From: Bacteroidota bacterium
GTDB taxonomy: Bacteria > Bacteroidota > Bacteroidia > Chitinophagales > Saprospiraceae
Direction of reading: 5' to 3'
NCBI GenBank assembly: GCA_019136675.1
Contig: JAGVTV010000055.1
Location: forward strand, 1-56,349
DNA length: 56,349 nucleotides
Translations under genes and position numbers: made by a program
Shown here: piece by piece, positions 1-18,400 of the stretch
Layout of the letters: each line of letters starts with the position of its first letter
How positions within the stretch are numbered: position 1 is the stretch's first letter
The notes under the pieces: generated by a model
Seen by the model: only the letters and a program-made list of their open reading frames with translations
Databases searched by the model: none
Told to the model about the DNA's origin: nothing

Positions 1-1
1 G

Positions 2-1513
2 GCAATCCCAGCAGCCGAAAACTACGTCTGGAGCACCCCGCTTGGACAAGTTACCACGACTGTGCCCCTGATTACAATTTATCCCGCAAAGGCGGAAAAT
101 TCAGGAGTTTATACAGTCAGTTCTTCATCCAATGGTTGCCAATCAAAAAGTTCTGCATCATTACAAATTGAAATCAGGCCCAAGCCCTCAGCCCCTTTCA
201 TCACCGGTGACTCCCTGGTATGCTTTGGGAGCAGTGCCACTGCGGGCATCACACCTCAGTCCGGTATAACATACCTGTGGTCCGGGCCATTTAATCCGGG
301 AAACACCCATCAGCTGAACATAACTTCGGCCGATAATACCTACAGTGGCACCTACCGGCTCACCCTGCTGTCAAATGGATGCTATTCATCCCCTTCGGCA
401 CCTTTTAATCTAACTGTAAAACCTGAGATCAGGACCCCTCAATTTATAACTTCTTCTATAAGTCTTTGCAAGACAAATGCCCAGGGAGCTGAGATTTGCC
501 TAAATCCGGGAAGCCTGGAACCAAATGCTACCTACCAGATCTTTGATCAGGGGAACAATTCGCTTGTCGCCAATGGAAATACCAACTGTTTTTTTATCAC
601 GGACCTGTCGGGATTCGGAGAAGGGGCTAATTTCCTCATTGCACAAACGACAAAGGACGGGTGTACATCCAGGCCATCAGAAAATCTTGTCCTGAGTCTC
701 AATACTCCGCCACAGATACAGGCAACAGCTGTGGAAGACAATATCACCATCTGTCCAGGTGAAAATGTCAGACTCATATCTGCCTCCGGCCCTCCTCTTG
801 TCAGCGTGGAATGGTCGACTCCTGAGCAGGAAGTGATATTGTCCGACAAAACCGGAATTTCGACGGTTGTTTCCGCATTGGATGAAGGCGAGCACTTCAT
901 TTATCTGGATTACAGCGTTGACGGGTGCCCTGATTTCAGCACGGATACAGTCAGGATTTATGTGGAATTTGCCCCTGTCACAACCGATGACGAGTATAGG
1001 TTGCCTTACGGCGAAAAAGGGATTCTTCCTGTACTGCAAAATGACAACATACCCCAAAACAGCTCCCTGACAATAGTGGACCTACCGGCATTCGGGACTT
1101 TGGCTATAATAAATGGTAAAGTCGAGTATCAGCCTGACCCCAGAAACCTCAAGCCCGTGGAATTTACCTACAGGGTATGTGCTGACCTCTGTTCCGACCT
1201 TTGTTCTGAATCCGTTGTCAGGATCAGTTTTGATGAGAATATCACCTGCCGTGTGCCTAACATCATCACGCCCAATGAAGACGGATACAATGACAGGCTT
1301 GTCATTCCGTGCCTGGATACTGAAAAGTACCCCGCCAACAAATTTTTAGTTTTTAATGAATGGGGGGATGAGGTATTTTACGCAAGTCCGTATAAAAATG
1401 ACTGGGATGGTACCTTTGGCGATAAGCCATTGCCTGCAGGCACTTATTTTTATATCCTGGACACGGGAGACGACCAAAAGCCATTCAATGGATTTTTAAT
1501 CATACAGCGATGA
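2..1513 (+). CDS. T9SS type B (CHU_C) surface adhesin, 5' truncated by the window edge
   Basis: This is the C-terminal part of a large secreted adhesin; the frame stays open to the window edge, so the true start is upstream. What is visible is a chain of Ig/PKD-like beta-sandwich modules with paired cysteines and repeated 'SGTYRLTL'-type strands. A cadherin/VCBS-like module follows ('VLQNDN', then 'VEYQPD'). The last ~90 residues form the gliding-motility-associated CHU_C domain ('NIITPNEDGYNDRLVIPC', 'VFNEWGDEVF', 'LPAGTYFYIL'), the type B signal for type IX secretion and surface attachment. It overlaps the PorP/SprF gene by 4 bases (ATGA), so the two are translationally coupled. That fits the known dependence of type B cargo on SprF-like proteins. 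The ligand is unknown. Confidence 0.88.
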   Translation, partial: AIPAAENYVWSTPLGQVTTTVPLITIYPAKAENSGVYTVSSSSNGCQSKSSASLQIEIRPKPSAPFITGDSLVCFGSSATAGITPQSGITYLWSGPFNPGNTHQLNITSADNTYSGTYRLTLLSNGCYSSPSAPFNLTVKPEIRTPQFITSSISLCKTNAQGAEICLNPGSLEPNATYQIFDQGNNSLVANGNTNCFFITDLSGFGEGANFLIAQTTKDGCTSRPSENLVLSLNTPPQIQATAVEDNITICPGENVRLISASGPPLVSVEWSTPEQEVILSDKTGISTVVSALDEGEHFIYLDYSVDGCPDFSTDTVRIYVEFAPVTTDDEYRLPYGEKGILPVLQNDNIPQNSSLTIVDLPAFGTLAIINGKVEYQPDPRNLKPVEFTYRVCADLCSDLCSESVVRISFDENITCRVPNIITPNEDGYNDRLVIPCLDTEKYPANKFLVFNEWGDEVFYASPYKNDWDGTFGDKPLPAGTYFYILDTGDDQKPFNGFLIIQR

Positions 1514-2463
1514 TGACAAGATATGCCTTACTCCTGTTTTTGATGTCATTAGCCTGTTTTGCACTGGGCCAGCAGCAACAGATGTATACCCAGTTTATGT
1601 ACAACAAGATGGCCCTTAACCCTGCCTATGCCGGCAATGAGACCTACCTGTCGGCCAACCTGCTCTACAGGGATCAGTGGAGTGGATTTCCCGGGGCCCC
1701 AAAGGCACAGGTTTTGACTGTGAGCCTGCCACGTCTCGGCAAGAGGGTTGGCCTGGGTGTCAATTTCGAACGCCAGACTATTGGTATAACTGAGAAACTA
1801 ACCTACGAACTGATGTATGCCTACAAGTTTTTCCTCGGTGAGGGTACACTTAGCATGGGCATGAATATTTCGGGACGGAAATATATACATGATTATACAG
1901 ACAGCAGGCTTTTTGCTATCCAGGATATTACCCTGGACCCTTCCGTACCTGCGATCGTCCAGACGAAAAATCTCATCAATGCCGGTTTTGGCGTGTATTT
2001 TAATACCAACAAATTTTACCTGGGAGCTTCGTTGCCCAGAATGATACGGTCTGACCTTGATTTTGACGACAATAAGTTTTTCAGCACTGAGGTCCGTCAT
2101 TTTCTGTTGATGACAGGCGGCACATTTATTGTAAACAATGATTTCCGTCTCACGCCCCAGATGATGTTCAGGGCTGCCGAAAACAGTCCATGGGGCCTTG
2201 ACCTGAATCTAAGTGGCACCTGGAAAGACAAATATTCCGCAGGTATGACCTACAGGACAGGTGGAGCAAGAGGTGATTTTGGTGAGTCCCTTGACTTTAT
2301 AGTGGCAGCCCAGGTGTCCGAAAGGATCATGGTAGGGTTTGCCTATGACGCCACTCTTTCGCGAATCCGGGCCATAGACAACGGCAGCCTGGAGATGATA
2401 CTTTCGTACAATCTCATACCGAGGAAGATAAAGACCATCATGGTAAACCCAAGATATTTCTGA
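1510..2463 (+). CDS. PorP/SprF family type IX secretion outer-membrane protein
   Basis: 317 residues with a signal peptide (cleavage near 'CFALGQ'). The family signature follows: 'YTQFMYNKMALNPAYAG' and then 'LLYRDQWSGFPGAPK'. The rest is alternating beta-strand sequence, consistent with an outer-membrane barrel of the usual family length (~300). SprF-type members are needed for secretion of SprB-like cargo bearing CHU_C tails. The coupled overlap with the upstream adhesin gene suggests this copy serves that adhesin. A PD40-OmpA gene follows after 2 bases. The family call is firm; the cargo pairing is inferred from gene order. Confidence 0.9.
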   Translation: MMTRYALLLFLMSLACFALGQQQQMYTQFMYNKMALNPAYAGNETYLSANLLYRDQWSGFPGAPKAQVLTVSLPRLGKRVGLGVNFERQTIGITEKLTYELMYAYKFFLGEGTLSMGMNISGRKYIHDYTDSRLFAIQDITLDPSVPAIVQTKNLINAGFGVYFNTNKFYLGASLPRMIRSDLDFDDNKFFSTEVRHFLLMTGGTFIVNNDFRLTPQMMFRAAENSPWGLDLNLSGTWKDKYSAGMTYRTGGARGDFGESLDFIVAAQVSERIMVGFAYDATLSRIRAIDNGSLEMILSYNLIPRKIKTIMVNPRYF

Positions 2464-2465
2464 GC

Positions 2466-4205
2466 ATGAACCGATTTATTATATACAGGAGTGTCTTTCA
2501 GTTTGTATGTTTATTTGTGTCGGTGTCTGTTGCCGGACAGGCAGTGATCAATAAATCAGTGTTGAAATCGGCTCGTCTTTTTTCTGAAGTCAGGATCAAT
2601 ACGGCCAATGAGGAGTCTTCTCCGGCTTTTGTCGGAGATAAGGTTGGTTTTGTTTTTACCAGATCCAATTTTTCAAGCGATGAAGAGGCTAATTATGATG
2701 TGGCATATGCCAGGGTAGAAGCTGACAATTCGCTGTCAGAAAAATCTGAATTCAGTAGCCGGCTAAACTCTTTTTTGCATGAAGGTCCCATGTCATACGA
2801 TGCTTCGACCAATGTACTGTTTTTTACCAGAACACATAAGGAAACCAGGCGAATCCGGGGAGTGGATACCGATACCTTCTACCTGCGGATCATGACTGCT
2901 GATCTGAACGCGGCAAAACCGGTCATTAAACCCATAGACCTCAATGTGGATCGTTACAGCGTTTGCCACCCTTCCCTGTCCTCAGACGGCAAGACCATGG
3001 TATATGCATCCAATCAACCAGGTGGTGCGGGAGGACTGGACCTGTATATAGCCCATCATGATGGTACGGGGTGGACAGCAGCAATAAATGCGGGTGACAG
3101 GATAAATACTCCGTACAATGACGGTTTTCCCTATTTGCTTAACGACACCCTGCTTGTCTTTGCTTCCCAGCGGCCCGGAGGTCACGGAGGCTGGGATATG
3201 TATGCCTGTGCCCTCAGGAATGGGTTCTGGACGTTTCCTGAGATCCTGCCCGAACCGGTAAATTCACCTTTTGATGATCTGGGCCTGATTGTCAGGCCTA
3301 ACGGGCAATCAGGATATTTTGCCAGCAACAGGCCCGGTGGATACGGCGTGGACGATATATACAGGTTTTCGACAGAAAAACCCATCTTCGGCCGTGTGGA
3401 CCAGCCGACTACAGAAGTGACTGTTCATGTGATGGATAAACTCACCCTTGAAGGCTTACCCGGAGCCACTGTAACTTTTGTCCCGCTTGAGGTGGATGTC
3501 AATAGTTTTACCATGTCAGAATTTAACGTCAACGTGCTTTCCGGTAAGGGAACGGGCGATCTGATCTTAAGGCTGACCCCAAAATCCAAGGAAAATATGC
3601 AAAAATCGACGGCGGACGAAACCGGGCTGACATCCATAAAGGTCCTTAGCCAGAAAAAATACCTTGTGTCGGTCTTTGCCGACCATTATCAGCCGATAGA
3701 TCTTATCTATGACCACGCCTCTTTCGGTGACCAGTTTAATGTAGTCCTCGAGCCTGAAGATACAACAGTCAATGAAGAAGAAAACCCACAGCCGACTGCC
3801 GGCATCAATGCACCGGACGCCATCACAATGCCCGAAATACCTACCAGTTCAGGAGCGGTAATTGTATTTGATAACATCTATTACGATTACAACAGTGCAT
3901 CTATACTGCCGGGTGCCGCTGCCGAATTGGATGCCCTTGCCAGGGCAATGCTTGAAAATCCGGATATGAAAGTAAGGCTCGAATCACATACTGACAGCCG
4001 CGGCACCTTCCGCTACAACCTGCAGTTGTCTATCGACAGGGCCAATGCAGCCAGAAAATACCTCAGCGGATTGGGTATAGACGAGGATAGAATCTCCATC
4101 AGGGGCATGGGCGAATCGAAGATCCGAAACCAGTGTGCGGATGGTGTGCCCTGCACAGAAGAAATGCATGCCTACAATCGCCGTACTGAAGTGGTGGTGG
4201 AATAG
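2466..4205 (+). CDS. PD40 beta-propeller / OmpA-domain outer-membrane protein (PorE-like)
   Basis: 579 residues. A signal peptide is followed by PD40 (WD40-like) propeller blades, seen as recurring 'HPSLSSDGKTMVYASN', 'FPYLLNDTLLVFAS' and 'YFASNRPGG' motifs. A carboxypeptidase-regulatory-like segment comes next (~residues 320-430), then a C-terminal OmpA peptidoglycan-binding domain ('YYDYNSASILPGAAAELD', 'LESHTDSRGT', 'NRRTEVVVE'). The D and R residues that bind diaminopimelate are present. This architecture matches proteins that tether T9SS machinery or its PorP/SprF barrel to peptidoglycan. It starts 2 bases after the PorP/SprF gene, so it is very likely in the same operon. It ends 10 bases before a convergent gene. 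Confidence 0.87.
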   Translation: MNRFIIYRSVFQFVCLFVSVSVAGQAVINKSVLKSARLFSEVRINTANEESSPAFVGDKVGFVFTRSNFSSDEEANYDVAYARVEADNSLSEKSEFSSRLNSFLHEGPMSYDASTNVLFFTRTHKETRRIRGVDTDTFYLRIMTADLNAAKPVIKPIDLNVDRYSVCHPSLSSDGKTMVYASNQPGGAGGLDLYIAHHDGTGWTAAINAGDRINTPYNDGFPYLLNDTLLVFASQRPGGHGGWDMYACALRNGFWTFPEILPEPVNSPFDDLGLIVRPNGQSGYFASNRPGGYGVDDIYRFSTEKPIFGRVDQPTTEVTVHVMDKLTLEGLPGATVTFVPLEVDVNSFTMSEFNVNVLSGKGTGDLILRLTPKSKENMQKSTADETGLTSIKVLSQKKYLVSVFADHYQPIDLIYDHASFGDQFNVVLEPEDTTVNEEENPQPTAGINAPDAITMPEIPTSSGAVIVFDNIYYDYNSASILPGAAAELDALARAMLENPDMKVRLESHTDSRGTFRYNLQLSIDRANAARKYLSGLGIDEDRISIRGMGESKIRNQCADGVPCTEEMHAYNRRTEVVVE

Positions 4206-4215: not shown

Positions 4216-5415
4216 TCACTTCTGCAGATAGAACCCTACGCTGCCACCTACCCAGTCCTTGTCTTTGTTGTATTTGACCCCGATCATCTTGCCTTTCGAC
4301 AGCCTTACCAGGTTATTGACTATAAACGGCTTTTTGTGGGTTTCGGGCCATATCATCATCATCCGTATTTCTACCTTGACAGGCTCATTGGGTGATTTTA
4401 GCACAGGCTCATAGTTCACTTTCCGCTGCAGGATGTATCCAGACCTATCGGTGATGGAATCAATATCTTCTTTGGTCACGTCAATCACCACACCTGATCC
4501 CGAAAAAGAATACAGCGGCTTCAACACATAATTTTCAAGGTCTTGTGGCAGTGTCTCCAAAGCATCAAGGAAGTACGTTTCAGGCACATAATTGTTTTTA
4601 ATATATGGCATCAGGTACTTACTGATCCTGTAAAACCAGTTGGGGTGACCTACCCATTTCACATCCAGATCATCCGTAAAACTAAACTGCAAAACAAGGT
4701 CTTTTCTGGCAAAAAGCTCATCAAATATGACCCTGTTGTATATTCTGAGTATGCGTATTTTGTTGCCTTCCTTGTCGAGGTAATAAAGTTTGGTTCCTTC
4801 CTTTAAAACCCTGGTGACACATAATGTCGGAATACCCAGCTCTACGGAAGTGCTCAGCAGATCGATGTAGGTATTTTGTTTTTCAGGCTCAATCTCCAGC
4901 AAAACCACGTTTTTGGGATCGGCATCGCCTACTATGATGTCATACAGCAGTTTCTTGTAGGAATGTTTGTCATATCCGTTAAAAAAACTGGTAAGGCTTT
5001 CAGGTATGTCAAATACCCTATGGTAAAGGTCGCTCACCATATATTGAAAAAAATATACGGAAGGAAATCCCTGTACCTCTATCAGCTGAGGGATGGGATC
5101 ACCCTTTTCGTCCAGGCAAATGCCAAAATCCACCTGCAGGAATGTTGTATGGTCGTCCTCACCCTTAACTATCACTGAAGGACTGTACAAGGCACCCTGT
5201 GTTATTTCCTTGATATCCGGACGTGCCACCACATTACTGATGAGGCCACAGGCTTCCACCAACCTTTCCATCAGAATATCCGGAATAAAAAATGGGGTCT
5301 CTGCTTCCCTGAATGTTGGCCTGTAGCCATACATGCTTTTCAGGGCATCTTTAAATTCCTCATACTTTTCAGCAGTGAATGATGCGTTGAATTTCTGTCT
5401 GAATTCTGGTATCAT
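4216..5415 (-). CDS. ATP-grasp-like ligase (ligase B of a putative peptide-metabolite cassette)
   Basis: 399 residues, no signal peptide, so cytoplasmic. The C-terminal half reads like an ATP-grasp fold: 'YVLKPLYSFSGSGVV' resembles the nucleotide-binding lysine strand and glycine-rich loop, 'GYILQRKV' the hinge strand, and 'VKVEIRMMMIWP' plus the terminal 'KYNKDKDWVGGSVGFY' the metal and phosphate region. The N-terminal half ('PQLIEVQGFPS') is unlike standard RimK or Ddl proteins, and a circularly permuted arrangement is possible. Its start overlaps the amidotransferase stop by 4 bases, so the two proteins are probably made together. Such enzymes join a carboxylate to an amine via an acyl-phosphate. 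The substrate is unknown, and the family call is from weak motifs only. Confidence 0.6.
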   Translation of the reverse strand: MIPEFRQKFNASFTAEKYEEFKDALKSMYGYRPTFREAETPFFIPDILMERLVEACGLISNVVARPDIKEITQGALYSPSVIVKGEDDHTTFLQVDFGICLDEKGDPIPQLIEVQGFPSVYFFQYMVSDLYHRVFDIPESLTSFFNGYDKHSYKKLLYDIIVGDADPKNVVLLEIEPEKQNTYIDLLSTSVELGIPTLCVTRVLKEGTKLYYLDKEGNKIRILRIYNRVIFDELFARKDLVLQFSFTDDLDVKWVGHPNWFYRISKYLMPYIKNNYVPETYFLDALETLPQDLENYVLKPLYSFSGSGVVIDVTKEDIDSITDRSGYILQRKVNYEPVLKSPNEPVKVEIRMMMIWPETHKKPFIVNNLVRLSKGKMIGVKYNKDKDWVGGSVGFYLQK

Positions 5416-6236
5416 GCCATCACCACATTATTGGCAAATATGGAGTCAAGTGCATTTTCGATAAAACGGGGCAGGATGGTGTTATGTGTTAGTTCAATCT
5501 TATCGGGGTCGTCCAGTTTGTCCATCATTGTATCGTATTTTTCCTGACCGAAATTAGCGATTACTTTTGTCCTGATCTCAGGCTTTTCAAAATGGATTTT
5601 CATACCTACCGGGTCAGCTTCAGGATGGAATTGTGTGCCAATAAATTCATCTGAAAAACGCACCGCCATGATCGCCCGCTCATAATCGACATGGGTTCTA
5701 ATCTTTTCCATGGCCAGGATTTTGGCACCGTGAAGCCTGAAGACATCGAGATCGGGCTGAATCAGCTGAAAATCACGGCTGTCAACAGCATGAAACGGAT
5801 CCGGCAATGATGAAAAAATGGGGTCGTCGGAACCGTATCTTGTCTGGTGCACGGGCATCACCCCGAATGAAGTGGACTTCCGTGGAGCCAGTGTGCCGAG
5901 CTCAAAATAAAAGCATGCCATCTGAAACGAATGGCAAATGAAAAACATATATTTTTTTTCAAATTTGTTCTGCAGGTTAAATTCCCACAGATCTCCCACG
6001 AGCTTATACCATGCTTTGTCCCAGACACCGTTGCCTTCCATCGGATTACCGGGGCCTCCGCTTGAGATATAGACATCAAAGGAGGTATCAGGCACTTCGT
6101 TTTTACTTCTTACGTCAAACTCGGTAATATCAAAAACGCTGCTGTACATGGCAGTAATATCCCTGATACAACGCATACCCTGATTGGGTTTGCCTTCGTT
6201 CATATCAAGTATGGCCAATTTTAACCTATTCTCCAT
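5412..6236 (-). CDS. Class I glutamine amidotransferase-like protein
   Basis: 274 residues. The GATase1 fold is seen from an oxyanion glycine segment ('YISSGGPGNP', ~57-65), the nucleophile elbow ('FFICHSFQM', Cys101) and the catalytic pair in 'TQFHPEAD' (His204, Glu206), so the triad is intact. After the core there is an extra C-terminal ~60-residue helical region. Stand-alone GATase1 proteins either release ammonia from glutamine for a partner synthetase or hydrolyse gamma-glutamyl bonds (as PuuD does). Here it lies between two ATP-grasp genes, overlapping the downstream one by 4 bases and following the upstream one by 27 bases. Ammonia supply for amidating a ligase product, or trimming a gamma-glutamyl group, are both possible. 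Confidence 0.8.
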   Translation of the reverse strand: MENRLKLAILDMNEGKPNQGMRCIRDITAMYSSVFDITEFDVRSKNEVPDTSFDVYISSGGPGNPMEGNGVWDKAWYKLVGDLWEFNLQNKFEKKYMFFICHSFQMACFYFELGTLAPRKSTSFGVMPVHQTRYGSDDPIFSSLPDPFHAVDSRDFQLIQPDLDVFRLHGAKILAMEKIRTHVDYERAIMAVRFSDEFIGTQFHPEADPVGMKIHFEKPEIRTKVIANFGQEKYDTMMDKLDDPDKIELTHNTILPRFIENALDSIFANNVVMA

Positions 6237-6263
6237 GTTTGTGACAGCTTTTAAAAAACAAGT

Positions 6264-7229
6264 TTAGCCTGCCTTTGGTTTGGATTTTGAGGAAAATACA
6301 TCACTTATAAACGTACCCCAGGTCAGGTTCATCCCTCCTGCCTTATGACCTTTAGCCTTTTCAATGGCCATCTCGGCGGCATTCTCCACGATCCAGTCAA
6401 AATTGGTCTGGCCTACGGAATTAACATCTGCGTCAGGAGCAGGATTGCAGAAATCTATAGCTATTGGAACACCATCCCTGACGGCAAACTCTACAGTATT
6501 GAAATCATATCCCAAAGCCCTGCAAAGCCTTATCGTATAATCCCTGACGGTTGCCAGCAGTTTGGCATCTTTGGTAGGATTATCCACCACATATCTGAGG
6601 TGATGCGGATTGCGTGGTTCATACGGCATAATATGGACTCTGTCGCCGGCAAGGTAATAACATCTGAAATAATGGTCAAAAACTATCTCTTCCTGAAGCA
6701 TCATTACAAGTTGTCCGGTTTCTGAGTGCTTACGCCAAAGGTCTGAAGCGTCAGACACTTTATATACGTTTTTCCAGCCTCCGCCTGCAAAAGGCTTCAT
6801 GTAGGCGGGAAACTTTATGTAATCAAATATGCGGTCCCAGTCTGTCGGGTACTTAAGGTTTCTGAATGACATCTCACTGGTATCATCGGGCCTGTCAAAA
6901 GATGGAAGCAGGACCGTGTTTGGTACCGGCACCCCGATCTTGGTGGCAAGGCAGTTGTTAAAGAATTTTTCGTCAGCACTCCACCAGAAAGGATTATTGA
7001 GCACGGCAGCCCCATTGAGGGCAGCGTTCTTCAGGTATGCCCGGTAATACGGCACATCCTGTGAGATTCTGTCAATGATCACAGCATATTCTGTGGCTTC
7101 GCCCTGCTCCAGGACATCAATTGAAACCGGTTCGGCCACTATGCCCTTCGCTTTTTTGGAGTTGACCCGGTCAACAAAAGCCCCCGGAAAAGTATTTTCC
7201 TTTCCGAAAAGTATCCCTATCTTCTTCAT
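6264..7229 (-). CDS. ATP-grasp ligase (ligase A of a putative peptide-metabolite cassette)
   Basis: 321 residues, cytoplasmic. The N-terminal region is a small Rossmann-like pre-ATP-grasp domain ('KKIGILFGKENTFPGAF'). The ATP-grasp core has 'YMKPFAGGGWKNVYKV' (Lys strand and glycine-rich loop), the hinge 'MMLQEEI', and the metal-binding segment 'FNTVEFAVRDGVPIAIDFCN', where a Glu and a final Asn would hold magnesium. This resembles RimK/D-Ala-D-Ala-ligase-type enzymes that make peptide or amide bonds. It is the first gene of the packed ligase-amidotransferase-ligase trio, and a -7 promoter box lies ~50 bases upstream. The acceptor and donor cannot be read from the sequence. Confidence 0.78.
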   Translation of the reverse strand: MKKIGILFGKENTFPGAFVDRVNSKKAKGIVAEPVSIDVLEQGEATEYAVIIDRISQDVPYYRAYLKNAALNGAAVLNNPFWWSADEKFFNNCLATKIGVPVPNTVLLPSFDRPDDTSEMSFRNLKYPTDWDRIFDYIKFPAYMKPFAGGGWKNVYKVSDASDLWRKHSETGQLVMMLQEEIVFDHYFRCYYLAGDRVHIMPYEPRNPHHLRYVVDNPTKDAKLLATVRDYTIRLCRALGYDFNTVEFAVRDGVPIAIDFCNPAPDADVNSVGQTNFDWIVENAAEMAIEKAKGHKAGGMNLTWGTFISDVFSSKSKPKAG

Positions 7230-7277
7230 TGATTACTTTAACTGATTTGGTAAAAAAATACTATCAACATCTCAAGG

Positions 7278-7285
7278 CAAAGCTA
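7278..7285 (-). promoter_or_regulatory. Putative Bacteroidota -7 promoter box for the ligase/amidotransferase trio
   Basis: On the minus strand the bases read TAGCTTTG, an exact match to TAnnTTTG. The expected -33 TTG is not seen at 19-22 bases; only a CTG lies ~23 bases away. It sits in the 166-base gap between the dipeptide epimerase and ligase A, ~50 bases before the ligase start. Confidence 0.45.
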
Positions 7286-7395
7286 ACTATTGTCCAATAA
7301 AAATTTATCAGGTGGCTTCATTAATTTATGAAATCCGCGTTTTTCAATATTAAACTCCGCCAAATTGACCCTTATAACATAAAAAAATGCAAAAA

Positions 7396-8517
7396 TTAAT
7401 CCCCTACCTCTATAATCTCAAATCTTTTGAGGAAAGCCGGGTCAAAATCCGCCCCATGTCCCGGCGTGTCGTCTACTGTCACTTCCCAGTCTGCTGAGTA
7501 CTTCAGACCTCCAGTTACAGGATCTTCGGACAACATCAGCGGGCTATCCAGATCGTGGTAAATGATGTGGTCCCAAACCATGTCAAAGTGGACCAGGGCT
7601 GTAATGCCCAGCCGGGACTCGCTGAATGACCCTACCTGACAATACATGTCCGCTGCCTGTGCTATCGCTGCGATCTTCATACTGTTGCAGATACCGCCGG
7701 ACTTGCCCAGTTTAATATTAAAAAGATGAGCTGCCTTGCCGGTTACAATAGTCATGGCATCCCTGGGGCTGAACACCGATTCGTCTGCCATTACCGGAAT
7801 GGGGCTTTCGGCGGTAAGCCTTGCCTGGTCGGTGGTATTTCCCGCCTGCACAGGTTCTTCGCAGTGTTCCAGATTCAGGTCCTTCATGGCATGAAGGGCC
7901 ATTTTGGCATCCAGGTAATTCCATCCCTGGTTGGCATCAATCCTGAGGGGCAAGTCAGGACCTACGGCTGTCCGTATGGCCTCCATCCTGGCTACATCTT
8001 TTTTAAACCCCCGCTCGCCAAGCTTGACCTTAAGTACAGGAAAACCCATCTCCTTGAATTTTACTGCTTTTTCGGCCATCTTATCCTTGTCAAGCAAGCT
8101 GACGGTATTGTCAGTATATATTTTCTTGGCCCTGTCTCCCTGCAAAAACTTATACAGCGGCAATCCGGCAAGCTTCGATACAAGGTCGTAAAGAGCCATA
8201 TCGAAGGCACATTTTACAGAGGCATTGCCCACGATCATCTTGTCCATAAGTGCCACATGACGGTGGATCTCCCTGGGGTCTGATCCTATCAAAGCGGCAG
8301 CAAGGTCTCTGGCAAAGGCCACGGTACCTGTCTGAGTTTCGCCATGAATCGACCTGTACGGACAACACTCTCCCACGCCATAGGTACCGTCGGCATTATA
8401 GATTTTTATGACTGTGTTTCTGGCATGTGTGAGAGCTCCCTTGGATATCACAAACGGTTCATGAAGTTTGATCTGTGTCGGGATAATCTCTATTCTGTCA
8501 ATCTTATAACTTGTCAT
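7396..8517 (-). CDS. Dipeptide epimerase (enolase superfamily)
   Basis: 373 residues. The order of catalytic residues matches the muconate-lactonizing/dipeptide epimerase branch of the enolase superfamily: the KxK base in 'VLKVKLG' (Lys163, Lys165), metal ligands in 'LRIDANQGW' (Asp194), 'EHCEEPV' (Glu220) and 'MADESVF' (Asp245), and the opposite base in 'FNIKLGKSGG' (Lys269). The late 'HDLDSP' supplies the DxD pair (Asp322, Asp324) that in Ala-Glu-type epimerases holds the dipeptide N-terminus. The reaction inverts the C-terminal residue of an L,L-dipeptide to L,D. It starts 19 bases after kynureninase and precedes the ligase trio by 166 bases. Specificity (Ala-Glu or another dipeptide) cannot be told here. 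Confidence 0.85.
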   Translation of the reverse strand: MTSYKIDRIEIIPTQIKLHEPFVISKGALTHARNTVIKIYNADGTYGVGECCPYRSIHGETQTGTVAFARDLAAALIGSDPREIHRHVALMDKMIVGNASVKCAFDMALYDLVSKLAGLPLYKFLQGDRAKKIYTDNTVSLLDKDKMAEKAVKFKEMGFPVLKVKLGERGFKKDVARMEAIRTAVGPDLPLRIDANQGWNYLDAKMALHAMKDLNLEHCEEPVQAGNTTDQARLTAESPIPVMADESVFSPRDAMTIVTGKAAHLFNIKLGKSGGICNSMKIAAIAQAADMYCQVGSFSESRLGITALVHFDMVWDHIIYHDLDSPLMLSEDPVTGGLKYSADWEVTVDDTPGHGADFDPAFLKRFEIIEVGD

Positions 8518-8536: not shown

Positions 8537-9802
8537 TCAACTTATCCGAAGTCCATCTTCCAAAACGGAAATAAAATTGTACACATCGGTAAATGTATTG
8601 TATAGCGGCACAGGGGCCACCCTGATGACATCCGGCTCACGCCAGTCGGCTATGACTCCCCTGCCAGAGATGTATTCAAAGAGTTTTTTATCAGGTCTGA
8701 GCATACGCAGGGAAATCTGGCACCCTCTCTGTGCCGGGTCGGACGGTGTGATAATGCTTATCCTGTCAGACCCAAGTGAATTAACCATATACTCAAGGTA
8801 AGCGGTCAGTTTTTCAGACTTGGTCCTCAGTGCACCCATACCGGCTTCCTTAAAGATGTCGAGTGATGCCCTGACAGCAGCCATGGAAAGGATGGGTGGA
8901 TTGCTCAGCTGCCATCCTTCAGCAGTCTTTATTGGTATATATTTGTCACCCATCTTAAACCTTACTGATTTGTCGTGTCCCCACCACCCGGCAAACCTGT
9001 GCAGGTTTGGGTCATTATGATGACGCTCATGCACAAAACAACCCGCCAGACTTCCTGGCCCGGAGTTAAGATACTTATAGGTACACCATGCGGCAAAATC
9101 GGGTCCGGCATTATGGAGATCTAGTCTGATATTGCCGGCGGCATGTGCCAGGTCAAAACCTACCATGCAACCCTGTGCGTGGGCATCACGTGTGATGGAT
9201 TTCAGGTCGTATGCCTGTCCGGTATAGTAATTTACCCCGCCAATAAGCACCAAGGCAATCTCATGTCCTTGTTTTTCAAGGACAAAACTGATCTGTTCCT
9301 GAGAGATTATTTCCGTTCCCGGCAAGGGCCTAAGCTCGATCATCCCTTCATCGGGGTCATACCCATGAAACTTTAACTGGCTGTGAATAGCATACCTGTC
9401 TGACGGAAAAGGTGAATAGTCAAAAAGGATCTTAAATCTCTCTCTGGTGGGTCGGTAAAAACTGACCATCATCAGGTGCAGATTGACTGTAAGGCTGTTC
9501 ATGACTACTACCTCTGAAGGCAAAGCACCCACTACAGCGGCCATATTTTCAGTCAGAAATTCATGGTAGGGCATCCAGGGATGTCTTGCATGAAAATGCC
9601 CTTCGACACCGAGATTTTTCCAGTCTTCCAGCTCCTCCATGACACAGGCAGAGGTGGTTAGGGGCATCAGCCCCAGGCTGTTGCCGCATAGATAGATTGA
9701 CTCTCCGCCACTCTGCACCACAGGTATAGAAAATTTATTTCTGAACAGCTTTAAAGGATCCGCCTGATCCTGTTGCCATGCATATTGCTGTGATGTATCC
9801 AT
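8537..9802 (-). CDS. kynU: Kynureninase
   Basis: 421 residues from the chosen ATG; a TTG 17 codons earlier would overlap the upstream stop and is less likely. It is a PLP-dependent fold-type I enzyme that cleaves kynurenine or 3-hydroxykynurenine to (hydroxy)anthranilate and alanine. Evidence: 'IYLCGNSLGLMP' near the N-terminus, 'VMNSLTVNLHLMM', the cofactor Asp in 'VGFDLAHAAGN', and the PLP-lysine motif 'CTYKYLNSGPGSLAG', all hallmark kynureninase segments. Length fits the family (~420). It follows the ACMSD-like gene by 23 bases, so tryptophan/kynurenine breakdown is a coherent reading of this pair. Confidence 0.93.
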   Translation of the reverse strand: MDTSQQYAWQQDQADPLKLFRNKFSIPVVQSGGESIYLCGNSLGLMPLTTSACVMEELEDWKNLGVEGHFHARHPWMPYHEFLTENMAAVVGALPSEVVVMNSLTVNLHLMMVSFYRPTRERFKILFDYSPFPSDRYAIHSQLKFHGYDPDEGMIELRPLPGTEIISQEQISFVLEKQGHEIALVLIGGVNYYTGQAYDLKSITRDAHAQGCMVGFDLAHAAGNIRLDLHNAGPDFAAWCTYKYLNSGPGSLAGCFVHERHHNDPNLHRFAGWWGHDKSVRFKMGDKYIPIKTAEGWQLSNPPILSMAAVRASLDIFKEAGMGALRTKSEKLTAYLEYMVNSLGSDRISIITPSDPAQRGCQISLRMLRPDKKLFEYISGRGVIADWREPDVIRVAPVPLYNTFTDVYNFISVLEDGLRIS

Positions 9803-9825
9803 CGTGGGCCTGTTTGCCGGCAAAA

Positions 9826-10860
9826 TTACATCAAATGTTCGGGATAAAGCCAATTAAGCACATTGGTGTGCCACATTTGGTCCCTTTCGGCGGTGGTAAT
9901 GATGCCAGATTCCACGGCATCATCGATTACCTTGCCGGGATATGAATTGGCCACTGTATCCATTTCTCCCAGTGGATAGGGATCGTCAATACCTGCCACA
10001 ATATGACCGGCTCCCACTCTGCGGAAGATCATCTCAAACGTAAGGACATCATGTACGATGGAGTCAACAAAATAATTTGGCTGTGAGAGTGTTTTGTCAG
10101 GGTCTGCGGCTCCCGGAAAAAGGTCTTGTCTTCCCTTATAGCCCTGCTTTCGCCGGCCGTGTCCCGCAAACCCAAACTGGTTTCCATGTGCAAAACATAC
10201 CCTCATGTCCGGATAACGGGCCCCATAATCTCCCATCGAATAAAAATGCCAGGCGTCAGCCGTCTGTGCACACATCCAGACAAGGTGAAATCGCCAGAAT
10301 TTGTCTTCAAGGGAAATCATTTCTTCAGCGTTGTAGGGGTGGATTTCCACTGCCAGTTTGAAATGGTTTGCCAGTTCAAAAACGGGATCAACATAAGGGT
10401 CAAACACGACCCTCCACTTGCCATCCCCGTCTAAAAAATGTGAAGGCAGGCAAAGCAACGGCATCTTATACTCACGCACACATCTCTCGATCTCGGCGAG
10501 GGCGTCATTCAGAAAAAGTGGTTGCACCACAAAGCCGGAAACAAATCTGTCCGGATACAAATCACTCAGACCTCCGTTAAAGTCATTCTGAAAGCGGATC
10601 ACGTCAAATGTGTCACTCCTGCTGTAACCATTACAATACAACTGAGAAAGGTTAAGCACCACCTCCCTGTCAATCCTGTTTTGGTCCATCCATTCAAGCT
10701 TGCGGTCCAGAAAAAAACTGGGGTGTGTCACAGGCCGTCGCCATGTACCCTGGCACATGCAGGAAAGGTCTTCTTCTACCCAAAAAATGCCCTTGTCCTT
10801 CATGAATGCCGGTATCTGGGACGGGTAGGGCAGCAAATGGCCGTGTGCGTTGATCCTCAC
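9826..10860 (-). CDS. Amidohydrolase, 2-amino-3-carboxymuconate-6-semialdehyde decarboxylase-like (ACMSD)
   Basis: 344 residues with a metal-dependent amidohydrolase (family 2) TIM barrel. The first metal site is 'NAHGHLLP' (HxH after strand 1). A further His is in 'AVEIHPYN', and the late acidic motif 'GIDDPYPLGE' closely matches the 'SDYPFPLGE' of known ACMSD enzymes. ACMSD removes CO2 from the 3-hydroxyanthranilate ring-opening product, steering it away from NAD synthesis toward catabolism. Placement directly before kynureninase supports this role. The ring-opening dioxygenase is not in the window. It is the first gene of the minus-strand run; no clean TAnnTTTG box was found upstream, only near matches. 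Confidence 0.85.
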   Translation of the reverse strand: MRINAHGHLLPYPSQIPAFMKDKGIFWVEEDLSCMCQGTWRRPVTHPSFFLDRKLEWMDQNRIDREVVLNLSQLYCNGYSRSDTFDVIRFQNDFNGGLSDLYPDRFVSGFVVQPLFLNDALAEIERCVREYKMPLLCLPSHFLDGDGKWRVVFDPYVDPVFELANHFKLAVEIHPYNAEEMISLEDKFWRFHLVWMCAQTADAWHFYSMGDYGARYPDMRVCFAHGNQFGFAGHGRRKQGYKGRQDLFPGAADPDKTLSQPNYFVDSIVHDVLTFEMIFRRVGAGHIVAGIDDPYPLGEMDTVANSYPGKVIDDAVESGIITTAERDQMWHTNVLNWLYPEHLM

Positions 10861-10980: not shown

Positions 10981-11904
10981 TTACGATTTTGTCTTGTTTC
11001 CTCCAAAATTGAACCCAAGCGTTACTTCATGAGAACCGTTATTGTAGTCCTGGATAACATTGGAAGAAGTATTGTATGAATAATAGAAATTCAGGTTTTC
11101 TATCTTGGTGCCTATCAGGAATCCAAGTCTTTTGTCCGCTCCGACGGTATAGGTAACTCCTCCGATGAGTTTGTCCTGCAGAAAACCAAAATTAAGGTTG
11201 AGGTCGATGTGAGTAGGCACGTTTGACAGCTTTTTCATGATGATGCCCGGTGTCATGGAGATGTCTTCCTGGATGTCGAGCCTGTATGCAAGCTGAAGGA
11301 TAAATCCGATCTCCTTGTTGTCATCACTACCATTGTCTATGTCGCTGATCCTGGAACTGACAAGCGAAGGCAGTGACAGGCCATAATAGAATTTTTTAAG
11401 GTAGATGCCATACAAACCGAAAGATGCATCAAAGTATTCTGCTCCGGAAAGAGCCTGACTTATGATCGGGTCATTTGGATTGGCATTGCCATACCCGCCG
11501 ATGGCGTGTTTGATGTAAGCTCCTGACAATCCAAACCCTACCTGGTTGTTATCTGAAACTATGGTATAGCTTAGACCGAGTTCGCCTTTGGTGGTCTCCA
11601 GTTCGCCAAACTTATCACTGAGTACATTGACTCCGACGCCAAGCCTGTTGCCCACAGCACCGTTATAAGACAGTGTAAGTGTCCTGGGGGCTCCGTCAAT
11701 ACCGGACCATTTGTTCCTGTAGTTGACAAATATCTGGTGGTTCAGACCATAGCCTATGGCTCCGGGATTTATCAGTTGCGGATTTAACTGAGATTGTGTG
11801 GAAATGTACCTTTCGTCAAAATACCTAACCTGAGCATCAATCATTGCCATACCAATGAAGAAAGCAATTACCGAAAGAACAATATTTTTTGTTTTCATTT
11901 TCAT
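10981..11904 (-). CDS. PorP/SprF family type IX secretion outer-membrane protein (second copy)
   Basis: 307 residues with a signal peptide ('MKMKTKNIVLSVIAFFIGMA'). The family's N-terminal signature is present: 'LNPQLINPGAIGYG', then 'VNYRNKWSGIDGAPRTLTLS'. Beta-barrel strands follow and end with 'YSYNTSSNVIQDYNNGSHEVTLGFNF'. It begins 19 bases after the stop of the large cohesin/SprB-repeat protein and ends before a terminator, so the two form a closed two-gene operon. This repeats the adhesin-then-PorP/SprF logic of the window's first cassette. It is likely an outer-membrane partner for secretion of its neighbour; that pairing is inferred. Confidence 0.9.
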   Translation of the reverse strand: MKMKTKNIVLSVIAFFIGMAMIDAQVRYFDERYISTQSQLNPQLINPGAIGYGLNHQIFVNYRNKWSGIDGAPRTLTLSYNGAVGNRLGVGVNVLSDKFGELETTKGELGLSYTIVSDNNQVGFGLSGAYIKHAIGGYGNANPNDPIISQALSGAEYFDASFGLYGIYLKKFYYGLSLPSLVSSRISDIDNGSDDNKEIGFILQLAYRLDIQEDISMTPGIIMKKLSNVPTHIDLNLNFGFLQDKLIGGVTYTVGADKRLGFLIGTKIENLNFYYSYNTSSNVIQDYNNGSHEVTLGFNFGGNKTKS

Positions 11905-11923
11905 TTCATTTAAAGCTTGAAAA

Positions 11924-14900
11924 TTAAAGGCCTCTCAACAAAGTGACCGTTCCTTTATGGACTTCCTTCCTTCCCTGCCCAAAGTTGACAGTCAGTACCC
12001 AGATGTAACCTCCTTCCCTGAGGTCCTTGCCGGAATTATCTATTCCCTGCCAGGTATTGTCATAATTGTTTTGGGAATATACCAGTCTGCCCCACCTGTC
12101 ATAGACTGAAAGATCAGAAGAATTGTCCAATACGCAATTGATCAGGAATACATCATTAAAGTTATCGCCGTTTGGTGTGATGACCGTTGTGGCTTCATAA
12201 CACGGTCCCGCAACCGAACATTCCTTGATTTCTATATTGGTGAGCTTCAGTTCGCAGCCGTTGGCATCGGTTACCGTGACATTGTAGAATCCTGTGGCAA
12301 GGTCTTCCACTTTAGAGCTATTGTCAGGTAGCCCAAGCCAGCTGTAGGTATAATTTCCAGCACCGGTATTGTTCATAAGTATTTCGATAGAACCCGTCTC
12401 CTTGTCCTTTTCAGTACAATTTACCCTTTGGGTAGCTGCGAGTTTTGTGGGCTGTTTTATCTCAATAGGCTGAGAGGTGACAGTGCCTTTGTTGTTTGTG
12501 GCTTCTATGGTATAGGTGCCTGCTCCTAATCCCGTAAAGGATATGGCGGGTCCATTGACTACAATACTTTTCACTGTCTGAGATCCTGATTTCAGATTTA
12601 CTGTAACCGGGTACCCTCCTTCTGTTATATTGGCGGTGATTATGCCGTCACTGACTCCAAAACAGGACACTCCAAAACCATTGAAAGACGATGCCACCTT
12701 GACATCTCCGAGTTTAGGAGCTTTGGTGGTGTCTACAGGAGGTCTAACGCCTACCACGATATTGGATCTGACAGCGGTACATCCATTGGCATCGGTCACG
12801 GTGACGCTGTATGTACCTGCCTTGACATTATTGGCATCAATGGCACCTGAAGTATTGCCATCAGGAATACTGGTAGGTCCTGCCCAAATCAGGGTATAGT
12901 TTGGTGTTCCGCCAGAACAGCTAAGAGATATTTTTCCATCACTGGCAGCAGCTGTGGATGCGTCCGTAACTCCTGTCAGAGATACCGCCACAGCATTGGC
13001 TGGTTCTGTGATCGTTACGGAAGCCGTCTTGACATGTGCGGGTGTGGCACTGTCAGATACTGTGATACTGTAAACTCCTGCCTTTAAATTCTGAGGGTTT
13101 TGACCTGACAGATTGCCGCTCCAGGCAAAGATGTACGGGGGACATCCTCCGGATACGGTAACCTGGATGGCTCCGTCACTGCCGTCTTTACATTTTACAT
13201 TGGTACCCGAAGCAGAAACAGTAATATCCGTTTCTGTTGTTCCCACCACAAAAGAAGCGTTAGCAGTACATCCCTTGCTGTCAGTCACTGTGACGCTGTA
13301 TGACCCTGCATCCAGATTGACAGGATTTGGGGTATTACCGAGAGAGGGGATCCAGTTGTACGTGTAACCACCGTTTCCTCCGGATGTAGTACTGATATTA
13401 ATAGATCCTTTCTGGCCGCAGGCGGCATTGGTTACCACACCTACGGTAGGTATTGTGATGACATTGGGCTGTGTTACGGTAGCCTCTCCGGTATTGCATA
13501 TCGTACCATTAAAGCTGATCTCATATACATATGTACCCGCAGGTACACCTGTCAGGTCTGTACCGGATGTAACCGGGGCTGAAGCCTTGACCACAGCTCC
13601 GGTGGCTTTGTTTTTCCACACTATCAGGTGGCTGGCCAGGTTTGATCCGGTCACTGTCAGGGCCACTGAACCGTTGCCCAATCCGTTACAGCTCACACTG
13701 GTAATAGCTCCCAGTGTGGCTGTGGAAGAGCAGCCCGGAGGTGGGTCGGTACATGTCACAGATCCCGGAGTAGCACTGCTTGGCAAAATTATGCTCGGTG
13801 TACCCACTATCTCGGTCGGACCCGAAACATTTACCGGTGTAGTAGGATTGCATTGCAGGATCTTGAAGCAAATCTGGAAAATTTTATGTCCGTCGGCCTT
13901 TGTGACTGCTGTTGGAGAAATCCACAAGAACTTCAACTGGTTGTTTCCTACCAGGTTAAAGGCCGATGAGTTGAGGCCATCCAGGTCATACATGTCTGTC
14001 CTTACAAACTCCAGATGCTGGGGATTCCAGCTAAAGGTCGTACTGGCTCCAACGATAGAGGTGAAATTATCCACGGTTACATTGACACATACGGTTTCAC
14101 CGACCATGCCATTTGCGGTCCCAACATTTATTACCACTGACTCAGCAGGGGGCTGGTTTATGATCTTTACTTTTCCATATCCAAAACACACCGGAACAGG
14201 ACCATTGTCATTTTCCCACTCTGTAGCAAGCGTACCCTGGCCAATGAGGATACACCCTGTCTTGCCAACATCTCCCACGACCTTAAAACACAACTCCATG
14301 ATGACTGTATTGTCTGGTAGTGTAAGTGGCGTAGCAGGATTATCGTTAAACCACAGGTACTTAAATTCGCCATTGGCGGCATTGGCAGCATTAAATCCGC
14401 CGCTAAACCCCGGAATTCCTCCTGTGGCTGGTGTTTTCACCTCTGTATATTGCAGAAGGGTCGGATCCCATTTGATGCTTCCCTGTCCCGACTGCATGAT
14501 TCTGAAGTTTTTGACTGTTATGGACACACAAATGTTGTTTCCCTTTTGGGTCGAATCTATCTTTCCCGAAATCAAAAGACCGTTAGGATCGGAGCAAGCC
14601 GGATTGGGGCAAGGATCGACATTGGATGTGCCCTTGATGGTCACTGTGCCTTTATTGTTTACAAGTGTGATAGGATCAAACGAGGCATTCACCACTTCTA
14701 TCACCCTGGGCACGTTGCTGGTGACCACGTCAGATTTGGACCCTTTGGGACCAATGGCCTTGAAAACAATGGAAAAAAGATTGGTGCCTGCAGGCAGGGA
14801 CTTGCCGTTGCCCTGTGGGTCAAACCATGAAAATGTGATCTGTCCGTTTTTAACTCCGACGCCATTGGGGCCGGAAACTGCGGCGGAAGACAAACCCGGC

Positions 14901-15127
14901 AAAGCCGTCGTAAAATTGGTAGCATTGACGAATTGCAGTACTGTGGAGTCAAAATTCATAGAAAACTGTACTCCCAGCAGATTGGTAAAGCCGTTTACGG
15001 TCACATTTACTGTAGCCTCAGCATTTTGTTCGACCTCCGAACTGGACATCGATACAGTCAACTGACCATTCGCTCCTCCTATGGCAAATGCAAAAACGGT
15101 CAGCAAAGTCAAAAGAATTTTCCTCAT
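11924..15127 (-). CDS. Cohesin-like and SprB-repeat adhesin with CHU_C (T9SS type B) tail
   Basis: 1067 residues from the chosen ATG ('MRKILLTLLTVFAFAIGG', a clear signal peptide); a TTG 12 codons upstream lies within the promoter-proximal leader and is rejected. Order: three cohesin-like beta-sandwiches (~22-165, ~185-325, ~330-460), recognisable from 'VNGFTNLLGVQFSMNFDST', 'VKNFRIMQSGQGSIKWDP' and 'VDNFTSIVGASTTFSWNP'. Six SprB-like repeats follow (~470-975; e.g. 'LDAGSYSVTVTDSKGCTA', 'VKAGTYSVTVTDANGCTA'). The C-terminal CHU_C sorting domain has 'TVITPNGDNFNDVFLINC' and 'VYDRWGRLVY'. It is exported by T9SS to the cell surface. Its promoter and the shared terminator beyond the PorP/SprF gene are visible. 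Confidence 0.88.
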   Translation of the reverse strand: MRKILLTLLTVFAFAIGGANGQLTVSMSSSEVEQNAEATVNVTVNGFTNLLGVQFSMNFDSTVLQFVNATNFTTALPGLSSAAVSGPNGVGVKNGQITFSWFDPQGNGKSLPAGTNLFSIVFKAIGPKGSKSDVVTSNVPRVIEVVNASFDPITLVNNKGTVTIKGTSNVDPCPNPACSDPNGLLISGKIDSTQKGNNICVSITVKNFRIMQSGQGSIKWDPTLLQYTEVKTPATGGIPGFSGGFNAANAANGEFKYLWFNDNPATPLTLPDNTVIMELCFKVVGDVGKTGCILIGQGTLATEWENDNGPVPVCFGYGKVKIINQPPAESVVINVGTANGMVGETVCVNVTVDNFTSIVGASTTFSWNPQHLEFVRTDMYDLDGLNSSAFNLVGNNQLKFLWISPTAVTKADGHKIFQICFKILQCNPTTPVNVSGPTEIVGTPSIILPSSATPGSVTCTDPPPGCSSTATLGAITSVSCNGLGNGSVALTVTGSNLASHLIVWKNKATGAVVKASAPVTSGTDLTGVPAGTYVYEISFNGTICNTGEATVTQPNVITIPTVGVVTNAACGQKGSINISTTSGGNGGYTYNWIPSLGNTPNPVNLDAGSYSVTVTDSKGCTANASFVVGTTETDITVSASGTNVKCKDGSDGAIQVTVSGGCPPYIFAWSGNLSGQNPQNLKAGVYSITVSDSATPAHVKTASVTITEPANAVAVSLTGVTDASTAAASDGKISLSCSGGTPNYTLIWAGPTSIPDGNTSGAIDANNVKAGTYSVTVTDANGCTAVRSNIVVGVRPPVDTTKAPKLGDVKVASSFNGFGVSCFGVSDGIITANITEGGYPVTVNLKSGSQTVKSIVVNGPAISFTGLGAGTYTIEATNNKGTVTSQPIEIKQPTKLAATQRVNCTEKDKETGSIEILMNNTGAGNYTYSWLGLPDNSSKVEDLATGFYNVTVTDANGCELKLTNIEIKECSVAGPCYEATTVITPNGDNFNDVFLINCVLDNSSDLSVYDRWGRLVYSQNNYDNTWQGIDNSGKDLREGGYIWVLTVNFGQGRKEVHKGTVTLLRGL

Positions 15128-15160
15128 ATCGGAAATTTTTAAGATGTTAAAATCAATGTG

Positions 15161-15192
15161 CAAAGTTAAACCTTAATTTATGTATAACTCAA
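15161..15192 (-). promoter_or_regulatory. Bacteroidota promoter for the cohesin/SprB adhesin-PorP operon
   Basis: On the minus strand a TTG (-33) is followed after 21 bases by TAACTTTG, an exact TAnnTTTG -7 box. The chosen ATG lies ~34 bases further on. The position argues against the upstream TTG start. Confidence 0.65.
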
Positions 15193-15389
15193 TTTAATCT
15201 TCATTTATTGGCCCGGACCTCCCGACTGTTTATAATTCTGCCGGGTGTCCTCACCTTTGTTATATGCAAATAGTAAGCCAAAATGAAAAACCCGTAAATA
15301 AAGGCGGGAAACTGTCTGCTTTTTAACAAAAATCTGGTAGCTATTGTTTCTGAATTTGATTAAGACGTAAAATTTTAACTTCTACCAAA

Positions 15390-15420
15390 AGCAAAAAGCC
15401 CGGACATACGCCCGGGCTTC
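15390..15420 (-). terminator. Rho-independent terminator after the 1479-residue T9SS protein
   Basis: AAGCCCGG pairs with CCGGGCTT around a short loop. On the minus strand it is followed by TTTGCTTTT. It lies ~30 bases past the stop codon. Confidence 0.8.
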
Positions 15421-15447
15421 TGAATATTTTTGTTTATCTGGATCAAA

Positions 15448-18400
15448 TTATCTGTTAAGCAGTATCATCTTTCTGGTAGCCTTGTGTCCGTTGCTTTCCA
15501 GCTCGTAAAACATGACTCCCTGTGCATTAAACTCCTCAGCATTGAAGGTGACCTCATTCCTGCCCTTAGGATACTTGCCGGATACTTTTCTGATTACTTT
15601 ACCTGTCACATCATAGATGGTAAGGTTAGCCGTTCCTGCTTCCGGCAGGGTGAATGAAATGGTGGTCTGTGTGCTGAAAGGGTTGGGATTGTTCTGGTCA
15701 AGTGCAAACTCACCTGCTCCTGAAGTCCTTACACCGAATGCTACTCTGATCTCATTAAGGTCTGTTGTGTAAGCTTCGGCCCTGGTGATGTCAGAAGTAA
15801 GGTTGATTGTATTGCTTATTGTATTATTCGTAATTGCTCTGAATTCGAGGGTAAACAGTGTCTCATTGGTTGCGGCAGATACACCATCTACGTCATTCCA
15901 GCTGAAGGCGATTTTACCTTCTGAAGACCTGAGGACGTTGAAGTTATCTGAAGAAACGTTAAGCTTTCCTGCCCTCACACCTGCAAACTCCAGGCTGGAC
16001 GCATCAAAGTCAAATGTCATTTGTGCACCGGCAATTCTGTCAAAGTTATCAGCCTTGATGTTGACATTTACTGTTTCGCCGGCGGTGTAAGCAGCTTCAG
16101 AAGCTACCAGATTCAGCACCTTGGATGTCCTGGAGTCAACAGCAGGATCATTGGCATTGACCGCAGCAGATCCGTTAATGTCTCCGACCTTGATAGCAAG
16201 GAAGTCATTGGCCATCATAGATGTAGAGAAGTTGTTGATCTGAATATACTCGTTCACACCCCATGGGTTTGCTATATCGGCGATCACTACTGACTTGTCA
16301 AGGAATCTCCAGGACTTATTGTTAGGCAGCTTGGCATAGATGCCCAGGATAAGTTTCCTAAGTTCTACGAGGTCAGATGCAGTCACTTTATTATCCTTAT
16401 TGATGTCGGCAGCAATGTACTTGGAGGCAGCATTGAGCTTCTGGATACCAAGGATATGTCTCTGGATCATCACGAGGTCAAGCGTAGATACTCCGTTAAG
16501 AGGATCGGTATCTTTTTCAGGTGTGATCTTGTAAGAAACCTGCTCAGGCATGCTGGCGAATTCGAAGTGTCCCTGAGTATCGGTCATATCGGCTTTTGTC
16601 TCGCCACTGTCCATATTCTCAAGAGATACCTGAACGTCTTTCACTTTGGCATTTTCCTCAGTGGTGATGTCACCCGCCATCCTTGCACCAGAACAAGCAG
16701 TACCATTGGCCTGAACATTGAGGGTTACAGTACAATAATCTGTATTGCCGGCAGCATCCCACACACTGATATCTTCTGAGTTTGGACCCAGGTTGTCGCA
16801 AGTGTACATTTTAGCTGAAGAACAGGTAGAAGGTAACCATCTCTGGTAAGTACCGGCTTCATATCCTGCAAGGAGAGCTGTGTTGGTAGTTGGCCATTGT
16901 CCCACAACTGTTCCGGCACTGTTAAACAGTACTTCTGTGCTAGAAACCGGAGGTTTGAACCCGTCAAAGGTAAATCTGAGGCCACATCCCGTCACAGGGC
17001 AGTTGTCTGTTGACCCTTTGTCAAAGTCTTTTGCCCAGATCTCTATGGAACCGGTGGTCGGCATTACTACTGTGGTCAGTTCGCTCAAGCAATATGGTGT
17101 CGGCTTCTTCTTGTCATTAACTCTGAAGGTATAGGATATCGTGGCTTGATTTCCGCACATGTCTTCCACCGTCCATGTGATCTTGTGGGTGCCCACAGGA
17201 TAAGTTGCTGAAGCATCATTGGTTGTACCTGTAATGAATGGAGCAAGTCCGTCATTATTTGGATCTATGGTATATGTCCATCTCAGCTGGGCTGCAGGTG
17301 TACAGTCAGTAGCACTGTTTTTAAGGTCCACATAACCGTTGCAGTTTTCACCAAATGCATCAGTATCAGCTTTGGAATTATTGGCTATCACCGGCTTAAC
17401 ATTTTCTGTAACCTTAATGATCTGAGTAAAGGACCACATATTTACGCCCGTAGTTGGAACTGACGGATAAGGGTATCCCTGGTTGTCAGTATTTGGTGCA
17501 AACTTACACCAGTCTATTACGGTCCATTTTCTAAGTATCTTGAAACATACTCCATCTACAAACGGGAATACCTGGTCTTCGTATGTGTAGGCTACCTGAC
17601 TACAAGCTCCTGCACCGATGGTAGGTGTACCTGTCTTGCTTGGATCAGTATCCACGTTCATACATCCGGTAACCTCTTTTGGTGATGTTGGCCAAGTTGT
17701 AGGTCCGTTGTATGGTGTATTATTACGTACAGTGATCGTTTGTGTACAAGAAGCCGTTCTGCCACCGTTGTCGGTTACTGTAAATGTTCTTGTTATCACA
17801 CCTTGACCACAGTTATCAATAGTACCTGTGTTTCTCCAACTCATTCTTGGGTTAGGACAGTTATCTGTAAAATATGGAGTGCTGAGAGCTGTCTCTGAAT
17901 AAACCGGCTTGCCCAGTACATTGGCAGATGTATCTGCACCGCAGGCAATGATGACATTACCCGGGCAAGTGATCACTGGTGGCACTTTGTCCTGAACATT
18001 GGCTATCACCATGCAGGTATTGCTGTTGCCAAAATCATCGGTCACCCTGAGCTCTACCATAATCTCTTTACCTACGTCCTCGCAGCAGAACTGTACATAC
18101 TCGCCCCAGGCGGTAGTGCTTGCACCACATCCTGCAGTGGTACGTCTAACTTCAAACTCTACATCTGTACAGTTGTCATGTGAGCCATCGTCAAAAGATT
18201 CAGCAAATACATGAGCCCAGCCGTTGTTTGACAGTGTCACCACGGTAAACTCATCGCATACAGCTACCGGAGGCGTTCTGTCCACCACCCTGATCTCAGT
18301 AAACGCATCTCTACTGTTGCCGCAGGCATCTGTAAGGGTGTACTTCAACCATGAGCATCCCAATGGAAGGCCTGTCAGTTGCCATTTTCCGGCATTGGGT

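Follow-up and report, generated by a model that had tools for sequence, protein, structure and literature searches.

The stretch of DNA analysed here (the window: 56,349 nucleotides, contig JAGVTV010000055.1 of assembly GCA_019136675.1, from a member of the Saprospiraceae in the phylum Bacteroidota) carries three adjacent minus-strand genes, which encode an ATP-grasp ligase (A), a class I glutamine amidotransferase (GATase) and a second ATP-grasp ligase (B). These three genes are probably central to a non-ribosomal amide-ligase pathway that is spread across the Bacteroidota and makes a small amidated or gamma-glutamyl-type peptide. An earlier note on this DNA had joined them to the dipeptide epimerase gene located upstream of A. 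The four intact minus-strand open reading frames lie where that note had placed them, and the 27-base gap between A and GATase and the 4-base overlap between GATase and B are exact. The features discussed are the following:

4216..5415, minus strand: ATP-grasp ligase B, 399 amino acids, YgiC/GspS/glutathione-synthetase-type by predicted structure
5412..6236, minus strand: class I glutamine amidotransferase (GATase), 274 amino acids, PF00117, with the triad
6264..7229, minus strand: ATP-grasp ligase A, 321 amino acids, the set's hub gene, with a predicted RimK/LysX/Ddl fold
7278..7285, minus strand: TAGCTTTG, match to the Bacteroidota -7 promoter box (TAnnTTTG), 48 bases before the start codon of A
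7396..8517, minus strand: dipeptide epimerase, 373 amino acids, adjacent and judged not to belong to the set; 43% identical to PDB entry 3q45, no synteny elsewhere

The evidence that A, GATase and B belong together comes from a survey of 247 Bacteroidota genomes, in which co-occurrence was assessed by Fisher p values, which ignore shared ancestry. As a rule in single copy, A was found in 86 genomes (its relatives being mostly 50-70% identical), B in 73 and GATase in 59. A is present in 58 of the 59 genomes with GATase and in 70 of the 73 with B (p=1e-33 for A and GATase, p=9e-42 for A and B), and the trio is complete in 45. Same-strand adjacency was observed for A and GATase in 41 of 58 genomes, for GATase and B in 33 of 46, and for A and B in 42 of 70, which is far beyond chance, and the window has the three genes adjacent in the same order as in the relatives. 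Co-occurrence and adjacency together exclude chance as the explanation for the position of the trio, which they do not do for the position of the epimerase. The earlier note had treated all four genes as one set and proposed a search of their neighbourhood across Bacteroidota; A, GATase and B are indeed conserved and co-occurring, but the neighbourhood of the epimerase is not conserved. The closest relative of the trio, in Chitinophagales UW1SPNA035 (locus L132), has a GATase 74% identical to that of the window. In a scan of named genomes, the close relatives of GATase among the matches listed were almost all from Bacteroidota, and a plasmid search with A gave zero matches.

The usual operon, seen across many lineages with Flavobacterium, Gelidibacter, Chryseobacterium, Chitinophaga, Mucilaginibacter and Maribacter among the named carriers, consists of an alpha/beta-hydrolase, A, a YbdK/GCS2 carboxylate-amine ligase, GATase and B, the alpha/beta-hydrolase gene being often found upstream of A. 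The distance from A to GATase is 1.1-1.6 kb in most genomes, and the interval is usually filled by the YbdK-type ligase (PF04107; PRK13515, 543 bits), although its place is taken in some lineages by an ATP-grasp protein of circularly permuted type (CP_ATPgrasp_2). Of the 247 genomes, 78 have YbdK; A is also present in 69 of these and B in 67 (p=1.5e-34 and p=3e-41, respectively), and YbdK directly adjoins A in 44 of the 69. In spite of this partnership in most relatives, YbdK was not found in the window genome (G000) nor in the other sampled A-bearing members of its family (G037, G064, G158 and G178), and this family accounts for five of the six genomes that have B but lack YbdK. The window therefore holds a reduced, lineage-specific version of the operon, and the usual place of YbdK between A and GATase was not visible from it, since this lineage lacks the gene. 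The circularly permuted ATP-grasp protein was considered as a replacement for YbdK in this family and rejected, as it had zero matches in five of its genomes. A search of the window genome with PF04107 rendered just a distant GCS2-CBS protein of 635 amino acids (L156:928-2835, plus strand), and a similar distant GCS2 match was found in three other family members; this protein might be a stand-in for YbdK.

A is, in its predicted structure, an ATP-grasp ligase of the RimK/LysX/Ddl-like type. Its AlphaFold model (predicted local distance difference test, pLDDT, 88.3) matches RimK with Z 22.0 over 264 residues, LysX/ArgX with Z of about 21 and D-Ala-D-Ala ligase (Ddl) with Z 19-20, and among 539 Foldseek matches at E<=0.001 those listed are of the Ddl/RimK/LysX/graspetide-ligase type. 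In a profile alignment with biotin carboxylase and Ddl, residues K145, D259 and N262, which are invariant in the alignment of A, fall on the ATP-binding lysine and, with one inserted residue, on the E-x-N metal motif. A is like RimK, LysX, ArgX and D-Ala-D-Ala ligase in its fold, its ATP-binding lysine and the acidic and Asn positions of its metal site, but it falls below the curated cut-off of the RimK family (TIGR00768, 23.6 versus 143.4 bits), it bears a D-x-x-N motif, and no S6- or LysW-like partner was seen. In some genomes A overlaps a gene encoding an aromatic amino acid lyase of the HAL/PAL family (L061:4703-7185, plus strand), a possible hint of the substrate.

The earlier note had described B as ATP-grasp-like. 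By sequence the assignment is uncertain (13.9 bits for GSP_synth PF03738, versus a curated Pfam cut-off of 29.3), but in its predicted structure (pLDDT 93.7, pTM 0.91) B is an ATP-grasp protein of the YgiC/GspS/glutathione-synthetase-like type. Its closest folds are YgiC and YjfC (Z 25.9; root-mean-square deviation 3.5 over 343 residues for YgiC), followed by GspS (24.6), homoglutathione synthetase (24.4), human glutathione synthetase (23.8) and Cp1B of the E-64 pathway (22.9), the resemblance extending over nearly the full length. All 23 Foldseek matches at E<=0.001 are of the YgiC/YjfC, glutathione-synthetase, GspS, trypanothione-synthetase or Cp1B type. YgiC and YjfC have been termed peptidylpolyamine synthetases, and Cp1B couples epoxysuccinate to L-amino acids, a precedent for B-type chemistry (PMC12568646). 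Residues D96, E113, Q115, K299, P300, E349 and R351 are invariant in 25 sequences of B, which shares with YgiC the Lys-Pro of the ATP loop. On the other hand, B is only about 8-15% identical to the members of this group and differs from them in its score below the GSP_synth cut-off, in having E-x-Q rather than E-x-N at the metal site and in its GATase partner. Since A and B score below the RimK and GSP_synth curated cut-offs, they are not filed in those families. A single genome (G125) encodes a sodium:solute symporter (SSF; L100:2637-5240, plus strand) that continues in frame into B, a hint that B may act on an imported substrate. A candidate for a second B in the window, at 50109-51503, was rejected because it encodes a sodium:solute symporter, linked to B only via the fusion in that other genome.

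The GATase matches PF00117 with 31.3 bits (cut-off 22.8). The Cys101/His204/Glu206 triad that the earlier note had reported as intact is present, and it is invariant in 23 aligned sequences together with Q105 and the S58-x-GGPG-x-P65 loop, so that both glutaminase-type motifs, SGGPG and CxxxQ, are present. No match to the Pfam gamma-glutamyl-hydrolase family (Peptidase_C26) was found in it. On sequence grounds the GATase looks catalytically competent.

Going by the chemistry of these families, A would activate a carboxylate as an acyl-phosphate and then couple an amino acid to it, as RimK, LysX and Ddl do, and B would likewise join an amine or amino acid to a second carboxylate, by the chemistry of YgiC, GspS and glutathione synthetase. 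YbdK, where present, would add a further amide bond; the lineage of the window would run a YbdK-independent version. The GATase would hydrolyse glutamine and, in the manner in which CarA supplies CarB, pass the ammonia to a ligase, for which the overlapping neighbour B is the simplest candidate; a terminal amide would result. The pathway would thus yield a small peptide, amidated or of gamma-glutamyl type, for use as a solute, a cofactor or a signal. The recurring hydrolases and aminopeptidases (M17, M29 and M42) would trim or recycle this peptide. Two systems can be compared with the set, carbamoyl-phosphate synthetase, in which a class I GATase (CarA) is paired with an ATP-grasp ligase (CarB), and the NAGGN dipeptide-amide osmoprotectant system, which likewise combines an amidotransferase with an ATP-grasp ligase and includes an M42 peptidase as well. 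Both use other ligase families, however, and the NAGGN amidotransferase is asparagine-synthetase-like; moreover, with 36-43 versus 398 bits, the M42 neighbours of the set come nowhere near the NAGGN model.

Several observations weigh against this pathway. The conserved D-x-x-N of A stands in place of E-x-N, and E113-x-Q115 of B, in which the glutamine is conserved, corresponds to E163-x-N165 of Cp1B, where the residues of the site are required for activity (PMC12568646); the activity of both ligases is a prediction. The members of the set are also separable, A and B being found without GATase in 25 genomes and A and GATase without B in 13, and in several lineages their genes are scattered; the GATase therefore need not be the obligate ammonia supplier of B. 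Finally, in two genomes (G093 and G055) an M29 peptidase occupies the position of the GATase, which would fit a hydrolytic role.

This last observation bears on an alternative that we consider unlikely, though the strongest of those weighed, namely that the GATase is an amide hydrolase that breaks a gamma-glutamyl or polyamine conjugate made by the ligases, comparable to GspS and its amidase or to PuuA and PuuD, in a reversible storage or stress system. The resemblance of the fold of B to YgiC/YjfC, GspS and trypanothione synthetase would be consistent with it, as would the genomes having A and B without GATase and the replacement of the GATase by a peptidase. Peptidases recur beside the set and its GATase, both M17 and M42, the latter directly before the GATase in Sediminibacterium and relatives; they would fit the trimming or recycling of a peptide product, and they also leave room for a GATase acting as a hydrolase. 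The GATase itself argues against this alternative, because it matches PF00117 rather than the gamma-glutamyl-hydrolase family and carries motifs of the glutaminase type.

It is very improbable that the set modifies proteins, with A adding residues to a protein terminus and the other enzymes editing the tag. RimK acts on ribosomal protein S6, and the fold of A is most RimK-like, but A scores below the RimK model cut-off, the other ligases resemble small-molecule enzymes, and no constant gene for a substrate protein was found in the operons compared.

With respect to the epimerase, this member of the enolase superfamily carries the metal ligands D194/E220/D245, the lysines K163/K165 and K269, and D322-x-D324 (aligned with 3q45 and 1jpm), the DxD motif presumably binding the amino group of the dipeptide. 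Having all the expected residues, it appears to be an ordinary dipeptide epimerase. Its orthologues (at least 39% identity) were found in 17 A-bearing genomes, and only in the window genome is the gene located within 20 kb of A. The two best orthologues (66% and 63%) lie on other contigs, where they have unrelated genes for coiled-coil and DnaB-helicase proteins as neighbours, and in L132 the region upstream of A is occupied by Sua5 and an HpaII restriction-modification pair. The co-occurrence of the epimerase with A in the 247 genomes is above chance (p=5e-7), which is also compatible with shared ancestry. In the window the epimerase is separated from A by 166 bases, which include the promoter-like box, versus merely 19 bases from the kynureninase gene upstream of it (8537-9853). 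TAnnTTTG occurs 71 times in the window versus 42.5 expected, and the single TAGCTTTG site is only suggestive of an own promoter for the trio. We have therefore rejected the epimerase as a pathway member on the basis of synteny; it is probably a separate enzyme and an unrelated neighbour. That all four genes form one pathway making or recycling a molecule that contains an L,D-dipeptide is, in spite of their adjacency on the same strand, the catalytically intact residues predicted for the epimerase and its co-occurrence with A, the least credible of the explanations considered. The epimerase is not syntenic with the trio in any of the 16 other genomes with both it and A, so that its membership of the set is unsupported, and with it the L,D-dipeptide reading and the product with a D-residue that the earlier note had proposed. 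What stands is a real, widespread amide-ligase gene set.

The kynureninase (TIGR01814, 458 bits, cut-off 246) is preceded by an Amidohydro_2 protein, and the pair (8537-10860, minus strand) is probably involved in tryptophan/kynurenine breakdown and is the tighter genomic neighbour of the epimerase. The region is flanked by type IX secretion/gliding-type proteins (1-4205, plus strand, and 10981-19887, minus strand), including two PorP/SprF proteins, CHU_C/SprB-repeat and cohesin-domain proteins and one OmpA-PD40 protein. At 15448-19887 (minus strand) a protein of 1479 amino acids combines cohesin, dockerin and a type IX sorting tail, which is unusual.

The earlier note knew of no described pathway with its set of genes, and in the literature searched none characterised was found. 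A search for papers joining ATP-grasp proteins with a dipeptide epimerase, or with a carboxylate-amine ligase and a GATase, rendered none, and a broader search returned nothing describing the function of the A/YbdK/GATase/B set. A literature match to a Maribacter RimK-type protein was set aside as evidence on gene A, since it belongs to a polysaccharide locus. In 2009 Iyer et al. reportedly predicted many gene clusters for peptide synthesis in which ATP-grasp ligases stand together with peptidases and other amidoligases, and an earlier mention of the A/YbdK/GATase/B operon there is possible.

In reconstructions of this pathway the epimerase is to be left out, and YbdK and the alpha/beta-hydrolase are to be added. 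We tentatively propose that a quarter to a third of Bacteroidota may use A, YbdK, GATase and B as a dedicated ligase set for a small amidated or pseudo-peptide metabolite so far undescribed, that the set is conserved strongly enough for this compound to have a core role as solute, cofactor or signal, and that the lineage of the window would make it without the YbdK step. If this is true, a major environmental phylum would have a widespread and well-conserved pathway whose product is so far unnamed.

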